A stretch of 64,000 bases of DNA from positions 124,001 through 188,000 of the forward strand of contig CP040678.1 of NCBI GenBank assembly GCA_005954745.1, in the 5' to 3' direction. The position numbers and the translations under genes were made by a program. The notes under the pieces are model-generated. The model made no database searches. It saw only the letters and a list, made by a program, of their open reading frames with translations, and was not told the DNA's origin. This document shows, piece after piece, positions 5,775-54,748 of this stretch (position 1 is its first letter; each line of letters begins with the position of its first letter). Source of the stretch: Halostella pelagica. Its GTDB lineage: Archaea; Halobacteriota; Halobacteria; Halobacteriales; Natronoarchaeaceae.

Positions 5775-6518
5775 CTACTCGCCGCATCCGCCCGCCGAGA
5801 TCGTGACCGTCTCGGAGAGCGAGAGCGCGATCCGCTCGGGGTCGTCACGGGGTCCCGAAAGCGCCGTCCAGTTCTCGACCGTCCCGTCGTAGAACTCGCC
5901 GTACAGCGCCGCGTCCTCGTTGAACGCTGGCGCGATCGTGACGGAGAAGTCGTCGCCGAGTCCGGAGTACGCGCCCCCGTCGGTACGTCTCTCGTCCCAC
6001 GTCCAGTCGATCCGGTGAGTTTCGCCCTCGGTGGTCCAGTTGTCGTAGTTGTTTGTGTCGTTGTACTGGTCGTCTTGGACAGTCCACTCCCCGCTATCCG
6101 ACAGACCGGTGATGGTGAACGTGGCCGCGCCGCCGGCAGACGTGGTGTTGTTCGCCCCGTGGATACTCACCAGACTGAGAGTTCCATTGGGGTCTTCGTA
6201 CAGGAACAGCGTACTCGAATTCGGCTCCTGAAGGTCGTTCGTTCCGTCCGATCTGTACGAGGCGTTGGTATCGTTCCCTGTCGTATCGGGACTCCCGTAG
6301 TCGTAGAACTCCGCAACCGATCCGTTACCAGCGATCGGCGTAACTGTGTAACACTCACCGCCCTGCTCGACGGAGTACGGTTCGTCCTCCTGTGCCGCGA
6401 CGGTCCCGACCGTCATCGACAGCGCGGCAGCAATAACCACGAGTACGGTGATGACCCGCGTCGCTGTCTGCCGATCCACGTTTTCGGACGATCCGTACAG
6501 TAGAGCCCTTATTTGCAT
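5775..6518 (-). CDS. Secreted protein with signal peptide, unknown function
   Basis: Up to 247 residues. A hydrophobic signal segment, VITVLVVIAAALSMTVGTVAA, is followed by an acidic exported region rich in Asn-X-Ser/Thr sequons (GNGS, NDTN, NNTT, NWTT, NWTA), expected to be N-glycosylated on the cell surface. Two cysteines (GECYTV near the mature N-terminus, GGCGE at the C-terminus) could pair. No C-terminal anchor is seen. The ATG at 6518 gives 13 residues before a GTG at 6479; a TATA-like AAATAAGG near 6511 would make the GTG the leaderless start, so 6479 is quite possible. No family recognised. Confidence 0.75.
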   Translation of the reverse strand: MQIRALLYGSSENVDRQTATRVITVLVVIAAALSMTVGTVAAQEDEPYSVEQGGECYTVTPIAGNGSVAEFYDYGSPDTTGNDTNASYRSDGTNDLQEPNSSTLFLYEDPNGTLSLVSIHGANNTTSAGGAATFTITGLSDSGEWTVQDDQYNDTNNYDNWTTEGETHRIDWTWDERRTDGGAYSGLGDDFSVTIAPAFNEDAALYGEFYDGTVENWTALSGPRDDPERIALSLSETVTISAGGCGE

Positions 6519-6709
6519 GCAGTCCCGCTTGCCCGACGGTCCCTATTGTAATGATTGGAGTAGCGGGTCCGTGACGAAGCAAAACCGTCCCTATTCGCGG
6601 ACAAGTGTAGGTTACTGAACTGCTCGCGAGAAGCGAACGGTCAGCGCGGCGTCCGTCGTTCAGGCGTCGGCCCCGCTCGGACCGGCCGACAGGAGTACCG
6701 GAAGCCGCG

Positions 6710-8161
6710 CTATCGGTTCAGCGTGTGTATCGCCTGTCCTAGCGCGTTCTCGCAGGCCTCCATCACGGCCTCCGCGAGCGTCGGATGGGTGTGAATAGTC
6801 GCGGCAACGTCCTCCAACGTCGCACCCATCTCGACCGCGAGAGTGAGTTCGGCGACCAGTTCCGAGGCCTCCGGGCCCGCTATCTGCGCGCCGAGGATGA
6901 AGCCGCTCTCCTCGTCGGCGACGACGCGGACGAACCCCTCGCTGTCGCCTGTCGTCAGGGCGCGGCCGCTTGCACGGAACGGGAACTCGCCGACGACGGG
7001 GTCGAAGCCGTCCGCTTCGGCCTCCTCCTCGGTGAGACCGACGGTGGCGATCTCCGGGTCGGTAAACACCGCGGCGGGGACGGCCTGGTAATCGAGCGCG
7101 GCCGGTTCCCCGGCGATGACCTCCGCGGCGACTTCGCCCTCCTTGCTCCCCTTGTGGGCGAGCATCGGTTCGCCGGCGACGTCGCCGACGGCGAAGATGT
7201 GGTCTTTCTCGGTCCGGGCGCGGTCGTCCGTCTCGATGAAGCCGTTGTCGTTCGTCTCGATGCCCGCTGCTTCCAGGTTGAGCGTATCCGTCACCGGCTG
7301 GCGGCCGACGGCGACGAGTACGTTGTCGGCGTCGAACGTCTCCGCCGCACCGCCGTCGGCTTCCGCGGCGACTTCCTCCTCCATCGCTTCCGTCGAAACG
7401 CGGATGCCGTCGTCGGTCTCCTCCCACCCGGTCGCCGTCCGGCCGAAGTGGAAGTCGATGCCGAGTTCTTCTGCGCGCTTTTTCACGGGCCGAGTGAGGT
7501 CCGACTCGTAGGCCGGAAGCACGGAATCAAGCATCTCGATGACGGTGACGTCAGTCCCGAGTTTCGCGAAGACGGTCGAGAGTTCCATGCCGATGTAGCC
7601 CGCACCGATGACGACCAGGCGTTCGGGGACCGAGTCGAGAGCGAGCGCCTGTCGAGAGTCGAGCACCGGTTCGTCGTCGAACGAGAAGCCCGGAATCTCG
7701 ATGGGGCGCGACCCCGTCGCGATGATCGCGTGCTCGAACTCGACGGATTCGCTCCCCTGTCCCTCGCCGGAGTGACCGACGCGGACGCTGTTCTCGTCGG
7801 CGAACTCCGCCTGCCCCTCGATGAGGTTGACGCCGTTTGCCTTGTTCAGTTTCTCGACGCCGCCGGTCAACTGGTCGACCACGCTGTCTTTCCACTCGAC
7901 CATCTGGGCCATGTCGACCGCGGGGTCGGCGTGGATCCCCATCTCCTCGGCGTTGCCCGCCTCGTGGGCCACGTCGGCGGCGGTTATCATCGCCTTCGAG
8001 GGGATACAGCCGTGGTTGAGGCAGGTCCCGCCGTAGGCGTTCTTCTCGACGAGCGTCACGTCGAGGTCTAACTGGCCGGCGCGGATAGCGGCGGTGTACC
8101 CGCCGGGCCCCGCGCCGATGACCAGCACGTCCGTTCCAGTTGCGATGTCTCCAACGACCAT
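6710..8161 (-). CDS. lpdA: Dihydrolipoyl dehydrogenase (E3)
   Basis: Flavoprotein that reoxidises dihydrolipoyl groups on E2 with NAD. 483 residues. FAD-binding GAGPGGYTAA at 16-25, redox-active disulfide Cys47-Cys52 in GGTCLNHGCIPSKAM, NAD-binding VIGAGYIGMELS, second FAD motif FAVGDVAGEPMLAHKG, and the C-terminal dimerisation domain with the catalytic HTHPTLAEA. Last gene of the E1a-E1b-E2-E3 operon; its ATG overlaps the E2 stop by one base. Haloarchaea carry dihydrolipoyl dehydrogenase even though pyruvate oxidation runs through ferredoxin oxidoreductases. Confidence 0.97.
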   Translation of the reverse strand: MVVGDIATGTDVLVIGAGPGGYTAAIRAGQLDLDVTLVEKNAYGGTCLNHGCIPSKAMITAADVAHEAGNAEEMGIHADPAVDMAQMVEWKDSVVDQLTGGVEKLNKANGVNLIEGQAEFADENSVRVGHSGEGQGSESVEFEHAIIATGSRPIEIPGFSFDDEPVLDSRQALALDSVPERLVVIGAGYIGMELSTVFAKLGTDVTVIEMLDSVLPAYESDLTRPVKKRAEELGIDFHFGRTATGWEETDDGIRVSTEAMEEEVAAEADGGAAETFDADNVLVAVGRQPVTDTLNLEAAGIETNDNGFIETDDRARTEKDHIFAVGDVAGEPMLAHKGSKEGEVAAEVIAGEPAALDYQAVPAAVFTDPEIATVGLTEEEAEADGFDPVVGEFPFRASGRALTTGDSEGFVRVVADEESGFILGAQIAGPEASELVAELTLAVEMGATLEDVAATIHTHPTLAEAVMEACENALGQAIHTLNR

Positions 8162-9687
8162 TATTCTAGTAGCAGTAGCTCCGGGTCCTTCAGGTATTCC
8201 TTCACGCGATTCGTAAAGCGGGCGGCGTCCGCCCCGTCGACGAGTCGGTGGTCGACCGACAGCGACAGCGGCAGCGTGTGTCGCGCGACGACCTCGCCGT
8301 CCTCGACGACCGGACGCTCTTCGATGGCTCCCAGCGCGAGGATACCGGCCTCGGGGTAGTTGATGATCGGCGTCGCGTATTCGCCGCCGATGCCGCCGAC
8401 GTTCGTGACCGTGAACGTCCCGCCCTGCATCTCCTCACGGGCGATAGAGCGGTCGCGGGCCTTCTGGACCAGTTCGTTCATCTCGGAGGCTATCTGGAGC
8501 AGGCCCTTGTGGTCGACGTCGTCGACGACGGGGACCATCAGTCCCGCGTCCGTCGCCGCGGCGACGCCGATGTTGTAGTAGTTCTTCTCGACTATCTCCT
8601 CGTTCTCCTCGTCGAGGCTGGAGTTCACCATCGGGAAGTCCTTCAGCGCCGCCGTGACCGCCTTCATGATGAGCGGCATGTAGGTGAGCTGAATGCCGCG
8701 TTCCTCGGCGCGTCCCTTGAGCCGCTCGCGGATCTCGACGAGGTTAGTCACCTCGACCGAGTCGTGGTGGGTGATATGCGGCGCGGAGTATTTCGAGCGC
8801 TCCATCTGGTCCCCGATGGACTTGCGGATGCCGCGATACGGCGTGCGCTCTTCCCGTTCCGCGGGCTCCTCCCGCAGACCGAGCGCCTCGGTGTCGGCCT
8901 TCTGGGCCTCCTGCTGGGCCTGGGCGTACTCGCGGACCGCCTCGGGCGTGACGAACGGTTCGCCGTCCCGTTTTTCGGTCGCCGGCACCGCATTCAGGTC
9001 CACGCCCTCCTCGTCTGCGAGACGGCGCGTGGCGGGCGCGGCGAGCGTCTTCTCCCTGTCGGCGGATTCGACCTGCTGCGGGGCTCCGCCGGCGGTCGAG
9101 CCGCCACTGGCCGCTCCGGCGCTTTCGGCGGACGCCTCGGCCGCGGATGCGGACTCGCTCGCTTCCGCGGTCGCGGTCTCCGGTTCGGATCCGCCGCTGT
9201 CGGCGGCGGCGCGTACGTCGTGTTCCGAGATGCGACCGCTCGGGCCGCTGCCGTCGACTTCGGCGATGTCGACGCCGAGTTCTCGGGCCAGACGGCGTGC
9301 GCTCGGTGCGGCGAACACACGGCCTTCGGGTGTTTCGGCCGCTTCGCCCGCCGTCTCCGTCCCCTCGTCGCCGGCGGGTTCGGCGTCGGCTCCGTCGGCC
9401 TCGGCCGCGTCCGCAGCCTCTAGATCGGTCGTCTCCTCGACCGGTTCGCCCTCGACGTCGAAGGTGATGATCACGTTACCGACGGGGACCATCTCCCCTT
9501 CGTCCGCCCGGATCTGCCGGACGGTCCCGTCTACGGGGGCCGGGACCTCTACGACGGCCTTGTCGGTCTCGACCTCGGCGACCGGTTGGTCCTCTTCGAC
9601 GGTGTCGCCTTCCTCGACTAACCACTGTACTATTTCGCCTTCGCTGACGCCCTCTCCGACGTCCGGAAGCTTGAATTCGCGTACCAT
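8161..9687 (-). CDS. pdhC: 2-oxoacid dehydrogenase E2, dihydrolipoamide acyltransferase
   Basis: Core subunit that carries the acyl group on lipoyl-lysine and transfers it to CoA. 508 residues: lipoyl domain (1-80) with the modified lysine at position 43 in EVETDKAVVEVP; an acidic Ala/Glu linker; a first E3-binding domain (about 122-160, FAAPSARRLARELGVD...GSGPSGRI); a second Ala/Ser-rich linker; a second, less canonical E3-binding-like domain (about 214-257, LAAPATRRLADEEGVD...VTPEAVREYA); and the catalytic domain ending in VDHRLVDGADAARF with the active-site His and Asp. Substrate cannot be deduced; in haloarchaea related complexes have been linked to branched-chain oxoacids rather than pyruvate. 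Confidence 0.96.
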   Translation of the reverse strand: MVREFKLPDVGEGVSEGEIVQWLVEEGDTVEEDQPVAEVETDKAVVEVPAPVDGTVRQIRADEGEMVPVGNVIITFDVEGEPVEETTDLEAADAAEADGADAEPAGDEGTETAGEAAETPEGRVFAAPSARRLARELGVDIAEVDGSGPSGRISEHDVRAAADSGGSEPETATAEASESASAAEASAESAGAASGGSTAGGAPQQVESADREKTLAAPATRRLADEEGVDLNAVPATEKRDGEPFVTPEAVREYAQAQQEAQKADTEALGLREEPAEREERTPYRGIRKSIGDQMERSKYSAPHITHHDSVEVTNLVEIRERLKGRAEERGIQLTYMPLIMKAVTAALKDFPMVNSSLDEENEEIVEKNYYNIGVAAATDAGLMVPVVDDVDHKGLLQIASEMNELVQKARDRSIAREEMQGGTFTVTNVGGIGGEYATPIINYPEAGILALGAIEERPVVEDGEVVARHTLPLSLSVDHRLVDGADAARFTNRVKEYLKDPELLLLE

Positions 9688-39800: not shown

Positions 39801-42800
39801 TTAGCCGCGGTATCGGGTCGTGACGGTCGGGTTCGTGGTGGTCGTTTCGTTTTGGCCGACTGTCGTGTCGGTTTCGTTATCCGGTTCATCGTCGACTAGT
39901 CCACCCGTGTCGACGGTGTAGTTGATCGTCTCGCGGACGACCGGTTCCCCGATCTCGGCTCCGGAATCAGCGTGATGGATCGAGACGTTGAGCGTCGCAT
40001 CGGCGTCCAGAGCCGTGTCGAGAGCGACGGTAGTGCCCGTTTCTTCGCCGGTGAGCACCCCGGACTGGCCGAGTACCGTCCCGGCCTCGGTACGAACTTC
40101 GACGACGTACTCCTCGGCGAACACTGTCCGGTCGACGGTGACGGTGTCGCCGTCGCCAGTCTGGTCGCTGACGCTCACGAGGTCGAGATCGTCGACCGCG
40201 GCGTTTCGCTGTTCGAACTGTCCGTCGAGGTTGTCCTCGAACAGCCACGCGTACAGGCCGTAATGTTCGTTGAACTCGTCGGTGTGGGGCTGCAAGGGCC
40301 CGTCGAACGGTTCGTCGAACAGCACTGGACGGTCGTCAGCGTCCAGTTCGGGGACCACCCACTCGGCCCCGAGGAGTTCGTATTCTCCGGTGTCGTTAAT
40401 CGTGTACAGCAGCGCCTCGGGCTCACGCGGGTCGAGGTCTCCGTCGACGGCGTTCTCGTTCACGAACCGAATGCCGACGGCCCCGGACTCGTTGCTATCG
40501 AACCGGTGGGTGTCGACGTACCCGTCCCGGCGTGCGGCCTCGATGTCCTCGTACTCGCCGATCGCGTCGACGGTGTCACCGGTTACGGCGGGAGTGTAGC
40601 TGACGTTCGTGGCGTTCAGTTCCTCGTCGGTCTCGGCGTCGTGTACCGCCACGCGGACAGTGCTGGTTTCGCCGACCGGTGGCTCCATCGTGAGATTACC
40701 CTCGAACGACTCGCCGGCGTCGAAGGCTCCCGTCTCGTTGTACGACGTTCCGTCGACGCTGGCGTTGACGTAGAACGCCGTCTCCGCGGTGGCGTTGTCG
40801 ACGGTGAGGTTCGTGCCGTCGCGGGTCTGGTCCGCGGCTTCGACGGTCGCCGAAACCTCAGTCGTCTCCTCGATTACGGTGTAGCTGACGTTCGTCGCGT
40901 TCAACATCTCGCCGGTCGCCGCGTCGGTGACTGTCACGTTGACGGTCGCGTTCTCCTCCAGCGGCGGGGCGAGCGTGAGGTTCCCCTCGAACGTCTCGTC
41001 CGCACTGAACGCATCGGTTCCGTTTCGTGCGATCCCGTTCACGCTCGCAGAGACGGTGAAACCGACGGACGCGGAGGCGTTGTCGACGGAGAGGTTCGTG
41101 CCGTCACCCGTCTGGTCGGTGACGTTCAGGCTCGCCGTCGCACCGACGGGTTCCTCGACCACGGTGTAGCTGACGTTCGTCGTGTTCAGTTCCTCGTCGG
41201 TCTCCGCATCAACGAGAGCGACGCGGACGGTGTCGTTCGATTCGAGCGGCGGGTCGAGTGAGAGGTTCCCCTCGAAGGTTTCGCTCCCATCGAACGCGTC
41301 GGTTTCGTTCAGCGTGTCTCTCGTGGTCAGCGTGTCACCGTCCACGCTCGCGTTCAGGTAGAAGCCGGTGCTCGCCGTTGCGTTGTCGACCGAGAGATTC
41401 GTGCCGTTGCCGGCCTGGTCCGCCACGGAGAGGTTCGACGTGATATCGACGAGTTCCTCGTCGGGCGTGACGTTGTAGGTAACGTTCGTCGCGTTTAGTT
41501 CTTCGTCAGTTTCGGCGTCATGGACAGCCACGCGAAGCGTGGCGTTGCCCTCCAGCGGCGGCTCCATCGTGAGATCCCCCTCGAACGACTCGTCCGCAGC
41601 GAACGTCGCGGTTTCGTTGAGCGTCACACCGCTGTCGTCGTGTACGTCGACGTAGAAGTCGGTGCTCGCCGTCGCGTTGTCGACCGAGAGGTTCGTGCCG
41701 TTGCCGGTCTGGTTCGCAACGTCGATAGCCGCAGTGGGGGGTGAGATCTCCTCATCGGGCGTGACGTTGTAAGTCACGTTCGTCGCGTTCAGTTCCTCGC
41801 CGGTGTCCGAATCGTGGACCGCGACTCGGAGCGTGGCGTTGTCCTCCAGCGCCGGAGCGAGCGTGAGGTTCCCCTCGAACGACCCGTCCGCGGCGAAGTC
41901 GTTCGTCTCGTTGAGGACTGTCTCGTTTCGGTGGACGTCGACGTAGAATTCCGTGCTTGCGGAGGCGTTGTCGACGGTGAGGTTCGTCCCGTTACCGCTC
42001 TGGTTCGCGACGTCGAGCGTGGCGGTCGGTGCCGCGGGCTCCTCGGCGGGCGTGACGTTATAGCTGACGTTCGTCGCGTTCAGTATCTCGTCGGTCTCCG
42101 CATCAACGAGAGCGACGCGGACGGTGTCGTTCGATTCGAGCGGCGGCTCCATCGTGAGATTCCCTTCGAACGTCTCGTCGGCATCGAATGTCGCGGTCTC
42201 GTTGAGCATCGAACCGTTCGCGCTCGCGTTCAGGTAGAAGCTCGTGTCCGCGGAGGCGCTGTCGACGGTGAGGTTCGCCCCGTTACCGCTCTGGTTCGCG
42301 ACCTCGAGCGTGGTGGTCGGTGCCGCAGGCTCCTCGGCGGGCGTGACGTTGTAGGTGACGTTTGTATCCGCGAGTTCCTCGTCAGTCTCCGCATCGTAGA
42401 CAGCGACCTGGACAGTGCTGTTCTCCTCCAGCGGCGGAGCAAGCGTGAGGTTCCCCTCGAACGACTCGTCCGCGGCGAAGTCGTCCGTCTCGTTGAGCGT
42501 CGAACCGTTCGCGCTCGCGTTTAGATAGAACCCGACGTTCGCACTGGCGTTGTCGACGGTGAGGTTCGTGCCGTTGCCGGTCTGGTCCGAGACGGCGACA
42601 CTCGCCGTCGGCACCGCCGGTTCCTCCTCGGCTGTCACGTTGTACGTGACGTTCGTCGCGTTCAGCTCCTCGTCAGTCTCCGCATCGTGGATCGCTACGC
42701 GGAGGGTGCTGTTCTCCTCCAGTGCCGGCTCTAGCGTCAGGTCGCCAGCGAACGTCTCGTTCGGTCCGAACGTGCCGGTCTCGTTCAGCACCGTCTCGTT

Positions 42801-45800
42801 GTCGTGAACGTCGACGTAGAACTCGGTGTTCGCGGTTGCCTCGTCGATGGTGAGGTTCGTTCCGTCGTCGGTCTGGTCCGAGACGGTTACCGACGCGGTG
42901 ACGTTGTCCGGCGTCTCGTTATCGTCTGGCGTCTCGTTCCCGTCCGGCACGTCCCCGTCGTCTTCGGGAACCGTGAATCCGAACAGGTCGATGCCGTTCA
43001 CCGAGACGTTCTCGCCGCCCTCAGTTTCGGCGGTGACGGTGTAGTCGCCAGCCGTGAGATCCTCGACCTGCTCCGTCTCTCCGCCGGCGATAGTCACTGT
43101 CCGTTCGGTCTCGTTACTCGTCACCGTGGCGTCGACGGTCTCGTCGTTGCTGTTCGTCAGCAAGAGGACGTCGCCGCCCAGGTCGGCCCGCAACGACTCG
43201 ATGGTATCGGGGTCATCGACGATGAACGACCACGCCTCGTTGCCGTTGACACGAGCCGAGTCGCCGTCGTCGGTCTGGGCCGTGACGGTGTACTCCCCCG
43301 GCGAGAGGTCAGCGACCTCCTCGCTCGCGCCCGCGGCGACGTCGACGGTGCGCTCGTCGCCGGTCTCGTTCTCGACGGTCACGGTGACACCGATCTCGCC
43401 GGGGTTGCTAAGCGTGACCGTGCTGTTCTCGACGGTGCCCTCGATATCGGGCGGGCACGCATCGACGGCGATCTCGCGGGTCTCTTCGCCGCCGAGCGGC
43501 ACAGCCGTTCCGTTACTCTCGGCGGTGAGCGTCTGGTCGCCCGGCGCGACGTCGAGCGACAGCTGGCCGCGGGCCGGCACCGTCACGGTCGACTCGCCGG
43601 TGTCGTTCTCGACCGTCACGTTCACCGGGAAGACGTTGGGGTTCGAGACGGTCACTTCCTCGCAGTCGGTCGCGACGCCGAGGCTCTCGATTTCCGGCGG
43701 GTCGTTCGGGTCGAGCGGGTCAGTCCCTTGCCGGACCTCCGCGCCGTCCGTGATGCCGTCGCCGTCGGTGTCGGGGTCGCTCGGGTCCGTTCCGAGTTCC
43801 TCCTCGCGCTCGTCGATGAGACCGTCGTTGTCGCTGTCGCGCGGTTCGGGGTCGTTGGGATCCAGCGGGTCGGAGCCCTGTTCGACTTCCTCGCCGTCCG
43901 GCACGCCGTCACCGTCAGTGTCCGCCTCCGTCGGGTCGGTGTTCAGACGGAGTTCGCGGCTGTCCGATAGCCCGTCGTCGTCCGTGTCGGCGTTGTTCGG
44001 GTCCGTCTCGAGTTCCTCCTCCTCGTACGTGTCGCTCAGGCCGTCGCCGTCGCTGTCAGCACCGGGGAAGTCGCTCGGGTCCGTCGGGTCGGTTCCCTGT
44101 CGGACCTCTTCGCCGTCGGTGACGCCGTCACGGTCCGTATCGGGGTCTGCCGGATCGGTGTCCCGGTCCGCCTCCCGGCCGTCGGTGAGTCCGTCGTTGT
44201 CCGTGTCGACGTTGAGCGGATCCGTTCCGTACACGTCTACCTCTGTCCCGTCACTGAGGCCGTCGCCGTCGCTGTCGGGGTCGCTCGGGTCCGTCCCGAG
44301 TTCCTCCTCGCGCTCGTCGGTGAGGCCGTCGCCGTCGCTGTCACGTATCTCCGGGTCGTTGGGGTCAAGCGGGTCGCTCCCTTGGTCGACCTCCTCGCCG
44401 TCCGGCACGCCGTCACCGTCCGTGTCCGCGTCAGTCGGATCCGTACCGATGGTGACCTCGCGTCCGTCGTCGAGTCCGTCGTTGTCCGTATCGGTTTCGG
44501 TCGGATCGGTGTTGTAGGTGAGAACCTCCGCACCGTCGTTCAGTCCGTCACCGTCGGTGTCAGCCTCCGTCGGGTCGGTCCCGACCCGTCGTTCCTGCTT
44601 GTTTGTCAACCCGTCCCGGTCGTCGTCGTTCTGGGGGACGACGCGGTCGCGGCCCTGACTACGGGCGTCGATGTAGATGGTGGTCGACGACCGCAGGTCT
44701 CGCTGGGCCGCAGTCGCGGTTGCAGTCGACGCGCTTTCCCGAACGATGATCTGGATCTGCGTGATGTCGACGACCTGGACCTGGGTCACTTCCTGAAGCG
44801 CACCCGAACAGGCCCCCTCAGCGGCCGACTGGATCTGCACCACGCTGGCCTTCTGGCTCTGTGAAATCGCGCCGGAGGACGCTGCGCCGGTGGCGACCTG
44901 AACCTGTTCGACGCTCACGCGCTGGACCTGCCTCACGCTGGCACCGCAGGCCGCGCCGCCGTGGCTCGCTGCCTCGACCTGCGCGACGGTCGCGTGCTGA
45001 CTGCCAGTGAGCGATCCGGACGCGGCTCCGACCGCCGAGAACTGGATCTGCTTGACGTTTGCCTGTCCATGGTGCTTGAGGACGCCGAAGGCCGCGCCCC
45101 GGGCGGCCCCCTTGAGCTTCTCGACGTCCGCCGCATTGGGTCGCTCGAGCGCGCCGTACGCTGCGCCCTGTGCGGCCTGCTTGACTCGTTCGGGAGAGGT
45201 CACTCCGTACTGGGCTTGACCTCTGACCGCGCCCGCGGCAGCGCCGAGCGAGACCTTTCGCATCTGACGACCGCTCGCCCGCGCGTTCCGAGCGACCGCC
45301 CCGTGGCCTGCGCCGTACGCTGCGGCCTGTATCCCGGCCTCGGTGCTGCGCGGTGCGACGAGCGCGCCGTGGGTGCTTCCCTCGACGACCCACCGGACCT
45401 CGCCGGCGGTCGCGTCCTCGCTCTGTAGCAGGGTCCCGTGGGCAGCGCCGCGGGCCGCCCGCCTGACCTGCTCGACCGTCAGGTCGGTATCAGGGCCGCG
45501 TTCGAGAGTCTGTTCCACCGCGTTTCTCGCTCCCTGCTGTGCGGCCTCGACCTGTGCGTCACTGACGTTGGCTCCTTCCTCGCGCGCCATCTCCGCCCCC
45601 GCTTCGGCACCCGAGGCTGCCGCCTCAGCGTACTCGGCTTGCTCCTGTGTCGCCGCTTCCGACGCGGCTCCATGCGCCCTGCCCGTGTCGAGTACCTCAC
45701 TCTGGTCGGTTTCGGTCGCCGCGGTTGCGGTCGATGCAACGTCGTTCGTCTCCGCCGCGTCGCCGGTCCCCGCCGCGGCGAGGCCCGGGACGGCGATGGC

Positions 45801-45854
45801 GCTGACGACGAGGATAACCGCAACGGCGACGACGAGTCCGCGCTTCACGTTCAT
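39801..45854 (-). CDS. Giant secreted repeat protein with TSP3-like Ca-binding repeats (2017 aa)
   Basis: Signal peptide ([21 protein letters not shown]). Residues about 50-390: a dozen Ala/Gly-rich repeats of about 24 residues (V-x-Q-V-x-x-A-A-x-G-A-A-x-G-A-L). About 405-720: 13 DxDxDGxxD repeats of thrombospondin type 3 form ([18 protein letters not shown] and so on), expected to bind calcium. About 720-985: Ig-like beta segments. About 985-1755: eight near-identical repeats of about 96 residues ([49 protein letters not shown]), with a divergent ninth near 1893-1979. Many N-glycosylation sequons. It ends [14 protein letters not shown] without a PGF-CTERM or membrane anchor. Likely a surface or released adhesin-like protein; role not established. 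Confidence 0.9.
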
Positions 45855-53131: not shown

Positions 53132-54748
53132 ATGAATCGCAAAACAGCAACCGCGATCTTGATGGCAGTAGTAGTCACATTGACAGGTCCGGCGCTAGCC
53201 GCGCCGGCGATGGCAGACACAGGTGTACAGGAAGACGGCGACGACGGAGACGACGGCACAGTCGGTAACGCCACGACGATGCAGAACGTGACGGTCGACG
53301 AACTCGAACTCCAGAACGTCACGGTCGAGAACGCGACGATAGAATCACTCACGGTGGAGAACTTCACGGTAGAGAACCAGACGGGTGCGGACGAACTGAC
53401 CGACTCCGTGGACCCGAACGAGACGACGGTTCTTTCCAACGTCAGTTTCGACAACCTGACGCTGGAGTCCGTGACTCTCGAGGACCTCAACGTGAGCGTC
53501 GGTGACGACACGGAGATCGAGGACATCGGCGTTCTCAACGAGACTGAAGACAACGAGACCGCCGGTCTGACCGACAACGACACCAACGAAACCGACGGTG
53601 TTCTCGGCGACAACGACACCAACGAGACCGACGGCATTCTCGACGATAACGAATCCGACAACGAGTCGGACGACGGGATCCTCGGCGACAACGACACGAA
53701 CGTGACGAACGCGTTCAACGCACAGGAGGACAACGACACCAACGAGACCGACGGCATCCTCGACGATAACGAAACCGAGGACAACGAGACGGACACGCCG
53801 CTCAACGATAGCGGGTCCGACGTGACCGACACCGAGTCGGAACAGGTGACAGTCGAGAACCTCACTATCGAACAGATGACCGTCGAGACGCTCACTATCG
53901 AGGAACTCACCGTCTCTGACGGTGCCCTCGGCGACAACGAGTCGGACGACGGGATCCTCGGTGACAACGAATCGGACAACGAGACAGACGACGGCATCCT
54001 CGGTGACAACGAAACCGACGACAACGTGACTGCGGAGAACGACACCACGTTCGAACTGAACGATTCGAACCAGACGGTCCTTCAGGACGAGGGCGAGGAA
54101 CTCGGTAACGTGACGATCCGGACGGTCAACGTCACCGAGATGACGATCCAGAACATGACGGTCGATGAGATCGACGTGCAGGAAGGCGAGGAGACCGGCG
54201 GCGTCATGGGCGACAACGAATCCGACAACGAGACCGACGGGATCCTCGGCGACAACGAATCCGACAACGAGTCGGACGACGGGATCCTCGGCGACAACGA
54301 ATCCGACAACGAGTCGGACGACGGGATCCTCGGCGACAACGACACGAACGTGACGAGCGCGTTCAACGCACAGGAGGACAACGACACCAACGAGACCGAC
54401 GGCATCCTCGACGATAACGACACCAACGAGACGGACACCGGTCTCGTCGACAACGAAACCGAAGACGAGATAGTTATCGACACGCTCTCGGCCGAGAACG
54501 TGACGGTCGAGAACGCGTCGTCGGACTCGTGGTCGCTCCAGACCGGGAACGACACGACGACTGACGACGGTGTGCTGGGAGATAACGAGACTGACAACGA
54601 GACTGACGACGGTATCCTCGGCGACAACGAATCCGACAACGAGTCGGACAACGGCATGCTGGGCGACAACGAATCAGACGACAACGAGACTGACGGCGGC
54701 GTCCTCGACGACAACGAAACGTCGGCCGACGAGGCAGTCGTCGCGTAA
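53132..54748 (+). CDS. Secreted DN-rich repeat protein (538 aa)
   Basis: Signal peptide (AILMAVVVTLTGPALAAPA). An N-terminal half of short beta-prone repeats NVTVDELELQN, TIESLTVEN, FTVEN, like a beta-solenoid. A middle and C-terminal half built on LGDNESDNESDDGI units (GDN-E-S/T-D). Nearly every Asn is in a sequon or beside Asp. No membrane anchor, no PGF-CTERM, ending DDNETSADEAVVA. Very acidic and low in aromatic residues. Probably a surface or released protein, strongly glycosylated or calcium-binding; function unknown. Codons for repeats are themselves duplicated, as described separately. The upstream in-frame extension is non-coding in character. Confidence 0.85.
   Translation: MNRKTATAILMAVVVTLTGPALAAPAMADTGVQEDGDDGDDGTVGNATTMQNVTVDELELQNVTVENATIESLTVENFTVENQTGADELTDSVDPNETTVLSNVSFDNLTLESVTLEDLNVSVGDDTEIEDIGVLNETEDNETAGLTDNDTNETDGVLGDNDTNETDGILDDNESDNESDDGILGDNDTNVTNAFNAQEDNDTNETDGILDDNETEDNETDTPLNDSGSDVTDTESEQVTVENLTIEQMTVETLTIEELTVSDGALGDNESDDGILGDNESDNETDDGILGDNETDDNVTAENDTTFELNDSNQTVLQDEGEELGNVTIRTVNVTEMTIQNMTVDEIDVQEGEETGGVMGDNESDNETDGILGDNESDNESDDGILGDNESDNESDDGILGDNDTNVTSAFNAQEDNDTNETDGILDDNDTNETDTGLVDNETEDEIVIDTLSAENVTVENASSDSWSLQTGNDTTTDDGVLGDNETDNETDDGILGDNESDNESDNGMLGDNESDDNETDGGVLDDNETSADEAVVA
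54239..54324 (+). repeat. Tandem 42-bp repeat inside the DN-rich gene
   Basis: Two successive exact copies of a 42-base unit (54241-54282 and 54283-54324), each encoding ILGDNESDNESDDG, followed by a partial third. A separate pair of about 90 bases (53689-53780 and 54329-54420) differs at one position. The exact identity at DNA level argues for recent duplication. Confidence 0.8.

Follow-up and report, generated by a model that had tools for sequence, protein, structure and literature searches.

A Halostella pelagica protein with five pentad boxes and hypervariable acidic linkers belongs to a widespread family of putatively secreted haloarchaeal proteins

We identified a widespread and previously undescribed family of putatively secreted haloarchaeal proteins, in which five short boxes of pentad repeats are separated by acidic linkers of very different lengths. 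One member is encoded in the window (i.e., the 64,000-nucleotide stretch of Halostella pelagica contig CP040678.1 analyzed here). On balance, we lean towards a reading in which this protein is secreted and forms a small β-solenoid bearing hypervariable, disordered, polyanionic loops, a design that would be the scaffold of the whole family.

Composition and repeats of the window protein

The gene is a single open reading frame (ORF), at coordinates that agree with those first given for it (Table 1). The original prediction described its product as secreted, repeat-rich, acidic, and rich in glycosylation sequons, and this description agrees with the signal-like N-terminus, from which we infer export, with the excess of acidic residues (163 D+E versus 1 K+R in the mature part), and with the number of N-sequons (60 in the 509-aa mature part, compared to 12.5 after shuffling; SD 3.0, maximum 24; 2000 shuffles). 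Inspection of the mature part revealed neither Cys nor a lipobox. An earlier suggestion of calcium binding finds no support in the sequence; no DxDxDG loop of the type found in EF-hand and dockerin-type calcium repeats is present in the window protein, and while an EF-loop-like string (NESDDGILGDNE) occurs twice, its position 1 is N. In members from the genus, the acidic tail is followed by a short conserved hydrophobic C-terminus (EAVVA, TAVFA, TAAFVA, DAAVVA, or DGAIVA).

The five pentad boxes (roughly L-T-V-E-N) and the acidic linkers (18 residues between boxes 1 and 2; see Table 1 for the others) alternate along almost the whole length of the protein, with repeat linkers behind boxes two, three, four, and five; the two-part layout that had been proposed, with the solenoid in the N-terminal half and the repeats in the C-terminal half, was not confirmed. 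The short solenoid-like repeats themselves were borne out, as pentad boxes that are β in the AlphaFold models described below. Among 294 full pentads from 14 family members, hydrophobic residues follow a two-three spacing, occupying positions i−2 (L 37%, V 27%, M 14%) and i (V 39%, I 26%, L 14%); position i−1 is T or S, i+1 is mostly E (55% of box pentads), and i+2 is N, E, S, or Q. At most about six pentads are contiguous in any box. An N-x-T site in box 1 is kept in 14/14 members of the 14-member profile A1, in 27/27 rows of alignment A2, and, on visual reading, in 11 of 13 distant members (L101 and L102 being the exceptions). Conservation of this site is biased in the Natrialbaceae loci from the profile scan, where the search pattern required N-[AV]-T-I-E-x-L; the A1 members were found otherwise. 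A loose ORF filter passed 26 ORFs, several of them antisense; 17 of these had a pattern box 1, and 16 of the 17 had N-x-T.

The exact 42-base tandem duplication that had been reported at 54241–54324 is present as given, and exact identity at this 42-base offset extends over 66 bases (54235–54300 versus 54277–54342). A second duplication, at offset 648, covers 125 bases with one mismatch, at 53709, which separates perfect stretches of 61 and 63 bases. This duplication had been described as about 90 bases long (53689–53780 and 54329–54420); it is real and carries the single difference noted, but the first coordinate was out of register by 8 and the repeat is longer. All 40 same-residue codons of the 125-bp pair are identical, against an expectation of 27.2 from codon usage in this gene, and none of 500 shuffles among synonymous codons reached the longest exact repeat (66 bases; shuffle mean 28.2, maximum 50), which places the duplication at the DNA level, beyond repetition at the protein level. 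A second large repeat-built surface-type protein is also encoded in the window (39801–45854, minus strand); it has 2017 aa, with 13 bacterial TSP3 and 5 DUF7282 stretches, and its gene contains tandem repeats of 285–291 bp that are about 76% alike.

Table 1. Coordinates, in the window, of the five-box gene and of its parts
Feature	Position	Strand	Evidence
Putatively secreted five-box protein gene, 538 aa	53132–54748	+	ORF; hydrophobic N-terminus MNRKTATAILMAVVVTLTGPALAAPAMA; start common to homologues
Signal-peptide-like region	53132–53218	+	Sequence; hydrophobic N-terminus also in A1 members; putative cleavage site
Box 1 (residues 50–80), pentads, with near-invariant N-A-T	53279–53371	+	Alignments; model β at residues 63–80
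Box 2 (residues 99–121)	53426–53494	+	Alignment; model β at residues 104–122
Linker 2, 116 aa, contains copy 1 of the 125-bp duplication	53495–53842	+	Alignment; low pLDDT
125-bp duplication, copy 1 (within linker 2)	53648–53772	+	Self-comparison
Box 3 (residues 238–261)	53843–53914	+	Alignment; model β at residues 239–261
Linker 3, 62 aa	53915–54100	+	Alignment
Box 4 (residues 324–349)	54101–54178	+	Alignment; model β at residues 322–351
Linker 4, 97 aa, contains the 42-bp tandem array and the second 125-bp copy	54179–54469	+	TRF, self-comparison, alignment
42-bp tandem array (3.3 copies, of which 54241–54282 and 54283–54324 are exact)	54209–54342	+	TRF and self-comparison
125-bp duplication, copy 2 (within linker 4)	54296–54420	+	Self-comparison
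Box 5 (residues 447–469)	54470–54538	+	Alignment; model β at residues 446–471
C-terminal acidic tail, 69 aa, ending EAVVA	54539–54745	+	Sequence, box/linker alignment

Family distribution and divergence of boxes and linkers

Matches to profile A1 were found in 126 of the 392 genomes of the order and in 35 of its 95 genera, the weakest of these matches (near E 1e-4) being possibly due to chance; A1 includes the window protein, whose own A1 score is therefore no independent test. The signal region, the five pentad boxes of fixed length, and the acidic linkers without K or R that characterize the family are all present in the window protein. A search with this single protein found relatives in 13/59 related genomes, and a single-protein scan of genome contigs gave 137 pattern matches, none of which was confirmed as a relative; scanning with the A1 alignment yielded 24 loci. 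Five regions matched by the profile (L100, L110, L111, L113, and L114) contained no family ORF under the filter used. Named members come from Natrinema, Haloterrigena, Halovivax, Halopiger, Natronorubrum, Halobiforma, Natrarchaeobius, Natrialba, and Halorussus, with Natrinema belonging to the Natrialbaceae, in which tandem pairs of the gene are frequent, and Halorussus to the Haladaptataceae. No Pfam or NCBIfam model matched the window protein over its cut-off; matches to Nucleoporin_FG (E 0.003) and Asp_protease_2 (E 0.07) fell below cut-off and were judged to be driven by composition. The original claim that the protein belongs to no known family thus stands as far as models in these two databases are concerned, but the protein is part of a broad haloarchaeal family. 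Neither a homologue of known function nor a stable repeat number in distant relatives, the two observations named beforehand as evidence against the prediction, was found. Literature searches, largely confined to papers outside subscription, found nothing relevant on haloarchaeal pentapeptide repeats (one unrelated paper) and, among the papers listed for haloarchaeal proteins with many sequons, disorder, or tandem repeats, no description of the family.

The genome that carries the window gene also encodes a 717-aa paralogue. In a tree built from the boxes only, the window gene groups with orthologues from two congeneric species (L029 and L030), beside the paralogue clade, and the window locus is syntenic in both species. 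The two other congeneric species searched (G003, 89% complete, and G004) presented the paralogue type only. The paralogue locus is probably the older of the two sites, since it is common to another genus of the family and to Halorussus. Comparison of gene neighborhoods revealed no functional link for the window copy, which adjoins a nitrite/sulfite-reductase-like gene, or for the paralogue; the genes flanking the latter we take, from reading their sequences, to be methionine-aminopeptidase-like and asparaginase-like. Several members (L028, at about 6103–8253, L032, L033, L057, L098, L102, L103, L104, and L109) end in a segment of about 100 residues that by eye looks CARDB/Ig-type, with no Pfam match over cut-off; members of the window clade and of the Natrialbaceae are without this segment. 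L109 also has a helix-rich-looking segment in place of the low-complexity linker ahead of box 5. In the metagenome assembly QS_9_68_17, the repeat gene contains a run of N (L031, 5833–7311, and L044), as expected for a collapsing repeat.

Boxes and linkers evolve at two different speeds. The boxes are almost gap-free across the 14 aligned members, and their dN/dS values (0.14–0.45; seven pairs) indicate that they are under purifying selection; the linkers range from 7 to 195 residues. Identity across the 127 box columns amounts to 96, 93, and 81 columns for the three syntenic orthologues, and linkers 2–5 (the last being the tail) are 116/62/97/69 residues long in the window protein and 133/106/105/79 and 32/58/55/41 residues long in the others. 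Two Natrinema proteins that are 97% identical differ in length by a 4-residue insertion only, located in a linker, and among three other Natrinema proteins (86–88% identical) only linkers and tail vary in length, with the largest difference in linker 4 and none inside a box. The repeat expansion and contraction that had been proposed is thus seen in linker lengths among both syntenic orthologues and close Natrinema relatives. Linkers of one gene share 5-mers more (mean 0.17; 63 pairs) than linkers at equal position in different genes (0.05; 55 gene pairs), with values of 0.23–0.56 within the window gene, of zero in L035, and of zero for most pairs of L030, L036, and L038. Paralogues of one genome contain differing linker units (sharing 0.10), a pattern consistent with slippage or unequal recombination acting within individual genes.

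Judged from the sequences, linker chemistry switches among clades, and sequons are not its constant feature. Linkers are rich in N-sequons in the window protein and in most Natrinema members, nearly pure Asp/Glu in Natronorubrum, Natrarchaeobius, and Natrialba, and rich in Thr/Glu/Pro in Halorussus and others. Of 43 members, a set that includes close relatives and for which the statistics ignore kinship, 27 are sequon-rich (>5 sequons per 100 residues; mean D+E 0.29) and at least 10 are sequon-poor (<1.5 per 100 residues; mean D+E 0.50); the sequon richness that had been predicted is therefore pronounced in the window protein but not family-wide. With N, S, and T left out, D+E is 0.58 in sequon-poor and 0.41 in sequon-rich members, and D+E correlates negatively with sequons (Spearman −0.66, or −0.60 without N, S, and T), a correlation among related members that is partly forced by composition. 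The median number of K+R after residue 30 is 1 (43 members). This set includes L034, shortened by an early frame end, and excludes L041 (the L057 gene), L043, L044 (run of N), and L056 (the L037 gene). Loss of the oligosaccharyltransferase AglB was rejected as the cause of sequon-poor linkers; AglB (TIGR04154 over cut-off) was found in 18/18 genomes tested, including those of L060–L063, L065, and L066. The linkers also contain hydrophobic islands that end in Q plus acidic residues (AFNAQEDN at 53710–53733 and 54358–54381 in the window; ALQDNE, AAAIQEDE, and AALQEET in relatives), which resemble a sticky spot in disorder. Across the 43 members, a motif of hydrophobics, Q, and two acidic residues or N was seen 61 times versus 31.4 expected and is absent in 20; because it is only about twofold enriched overall and uneven across members, we built no function on it.

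Predicted fold and alternative readings

AlphaFold models of two members, based on alignments of 27 rows, place β structure almost only in the boxes, both in the window protein (Table 1) and in a Natrinema thermotolerans member (residues 59–79, 111–132, 165–188, 223–251, and 300–322). By block, pLDDT is about 75–90 in boxes and <50 in linkers, and the mean over a whole model is 52–59. The pTM values are modest (0.50 and 0.45). At least half of each model is disordered, and that pTM reaches this level despite the disorder hints that the boxes may pack together, although their mutual stacking is not secure at such confidence. Foldseek returned four matches (E 5.7–9.6), none of them significant, including two tailspikes and the pentapeptide protein QnrB1; VIA-align gave no fold match at Z 2 or more, and a profile search of solved structures gave no match up to E 1.

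In the reading that we favor, each conserved box would contribute approximately one solenoid coil, and the five coils probably stack into a single small β-solenoid from which long disordered polyanionic loops emerge between coils, with a further such segment as the tail. Loops at box boundaries could lengthen or shorten through slippage or unequal recombination with the core left undisturbed, and they turn over fast, probably because they sit where insertions spare that core. In H. pelagica, the loops consist of DNES/DNET sequons, which AglB probably N-glycosylates; their counterparts in other clades are nearly pure Asp/Glu or Thr/Glu/Pro.

The pentad pattern resembles that of pentapeptide repeat proteins (PF00805, PF13599) in its five-residue period and in having inward positions two apart, and the family could consist of true pentapeptide-repeat proteins in which the solenoid face binds a partner and the loops are passive spacers. 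Four of the 14 members match Pentapeptide_4 at E up to 0.01 (best 0.00019, the strongest Pfam match in this set), and QnrB1 is among the non-significant fold matches; however, the best member listed scores 21.8 bits against a Pfam cut-off of 38, and for the window protein itself no Pfam pentapeptide family came up at E 1 or better. Known members have an L/F center, while the center here is V/I, with L/F in just 20% of 361 pentads (14 members), and no run of eight contiguous repeats occurs (about six at most). A check for a right-handed quadrilateral β-helix found β in all five boxes, low global model confidence, and non-significant fold matches. Inter-coil loops of 6–24 residues are given for pentapeptide repeat proteins in the available part of PMC8145042, and those of the window family, at up to about 195 residues between boxes, would be severalfold longer. 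This reading is very unlikely in our view. We also doubt strongly that the linkers are functionless low-complexity sequence that expands neutrally and owes its tolerance to the general acidity of secreted halophile proteins; sequence, length, and chemistry are all quick to change, as this would predict, but acidity, near-absence of K/R, and the sequon excess (60 versus 12.5) survive repeated turnover, and sequon-poor members are richer in D+E (0.50 versus 0.29), although the members are related and hence not independent evidence.

Because FapC of Pseudomonas is the closest known design, we consider the main rival to be a functional-amyloid-like fibre, in which the boxes would stack both within and between molecules into a cross-β biofilm-matrix fibril and the linkers would form a FapC-like outer coat. 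The accessible portions of two papers describe FapC homologues with a conserved repeat number and strongly variable linkers (PMC3792158) and FapC repeats that each form one β-solenoid layer, with disordered linkers between them (linker 2 of 35–259 residues; PMC12392863); the window family, with its constant repeat number and variable linkers, would share this secreted, layered design. According to the available text of PMC4180959, Haloferax volcanii biofilms are stained by Congo red as well as thioflavin T and have been termed putatively amyloid, which is in line with such a fibre. The likeness is one of design alone, as FapC is bacterial and has three Greek-key repeats with an Asn/Gln core instead of five pentad boxes, and no sequence relation to FapC is expected; moreover, E at i+1 would cause repulsion between stacked molecules at low salt. 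A fibre thus appears unlikely, if less so than the two readings above.

Possible role and implications

Under the solenoid-with-loops reading, the protein is probably part of a hydrated, charged cell-surface or extracellular-matrix layer, as suggested by its composition and by analogy with halomucin of Haloquadratum walsbyi, a secreted haloarchaeal protein proposed, in the part of PMC4378361 available, to hold water round the cell. Halomucin is likened here by description only; it is mucin-like, has 9159 aa, and its function is also a hypothesis in that source. We put forward only tentatively a more specific version, in which a new class of interrupted solenoid with one coil per box would carry a freely exchangeable polyanionic brush, selection would act on charge and hydration and not on glycans as such, and the protein would possibly be a subunit of an amyloid-like haloarchaeal matrix.

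Common as it is among haloarchaea, the family has no Pfam or NCBIfam model that covers it. Its members form a natural series, with loops rich in sugar sites, purely acidic, or rich in Thr/Glu/Pro on a single conserved core, and this series allows one to ask what glycans add to bare charge for extracellular proteins at high salt, as well as how protein loops can expand fast without breaking the fold. If the boxes do stack between molecules, the family would also offer a genetic candidate for the material in haloarchaeal biofilms that, as far as the available account goes, stains like amyloid.
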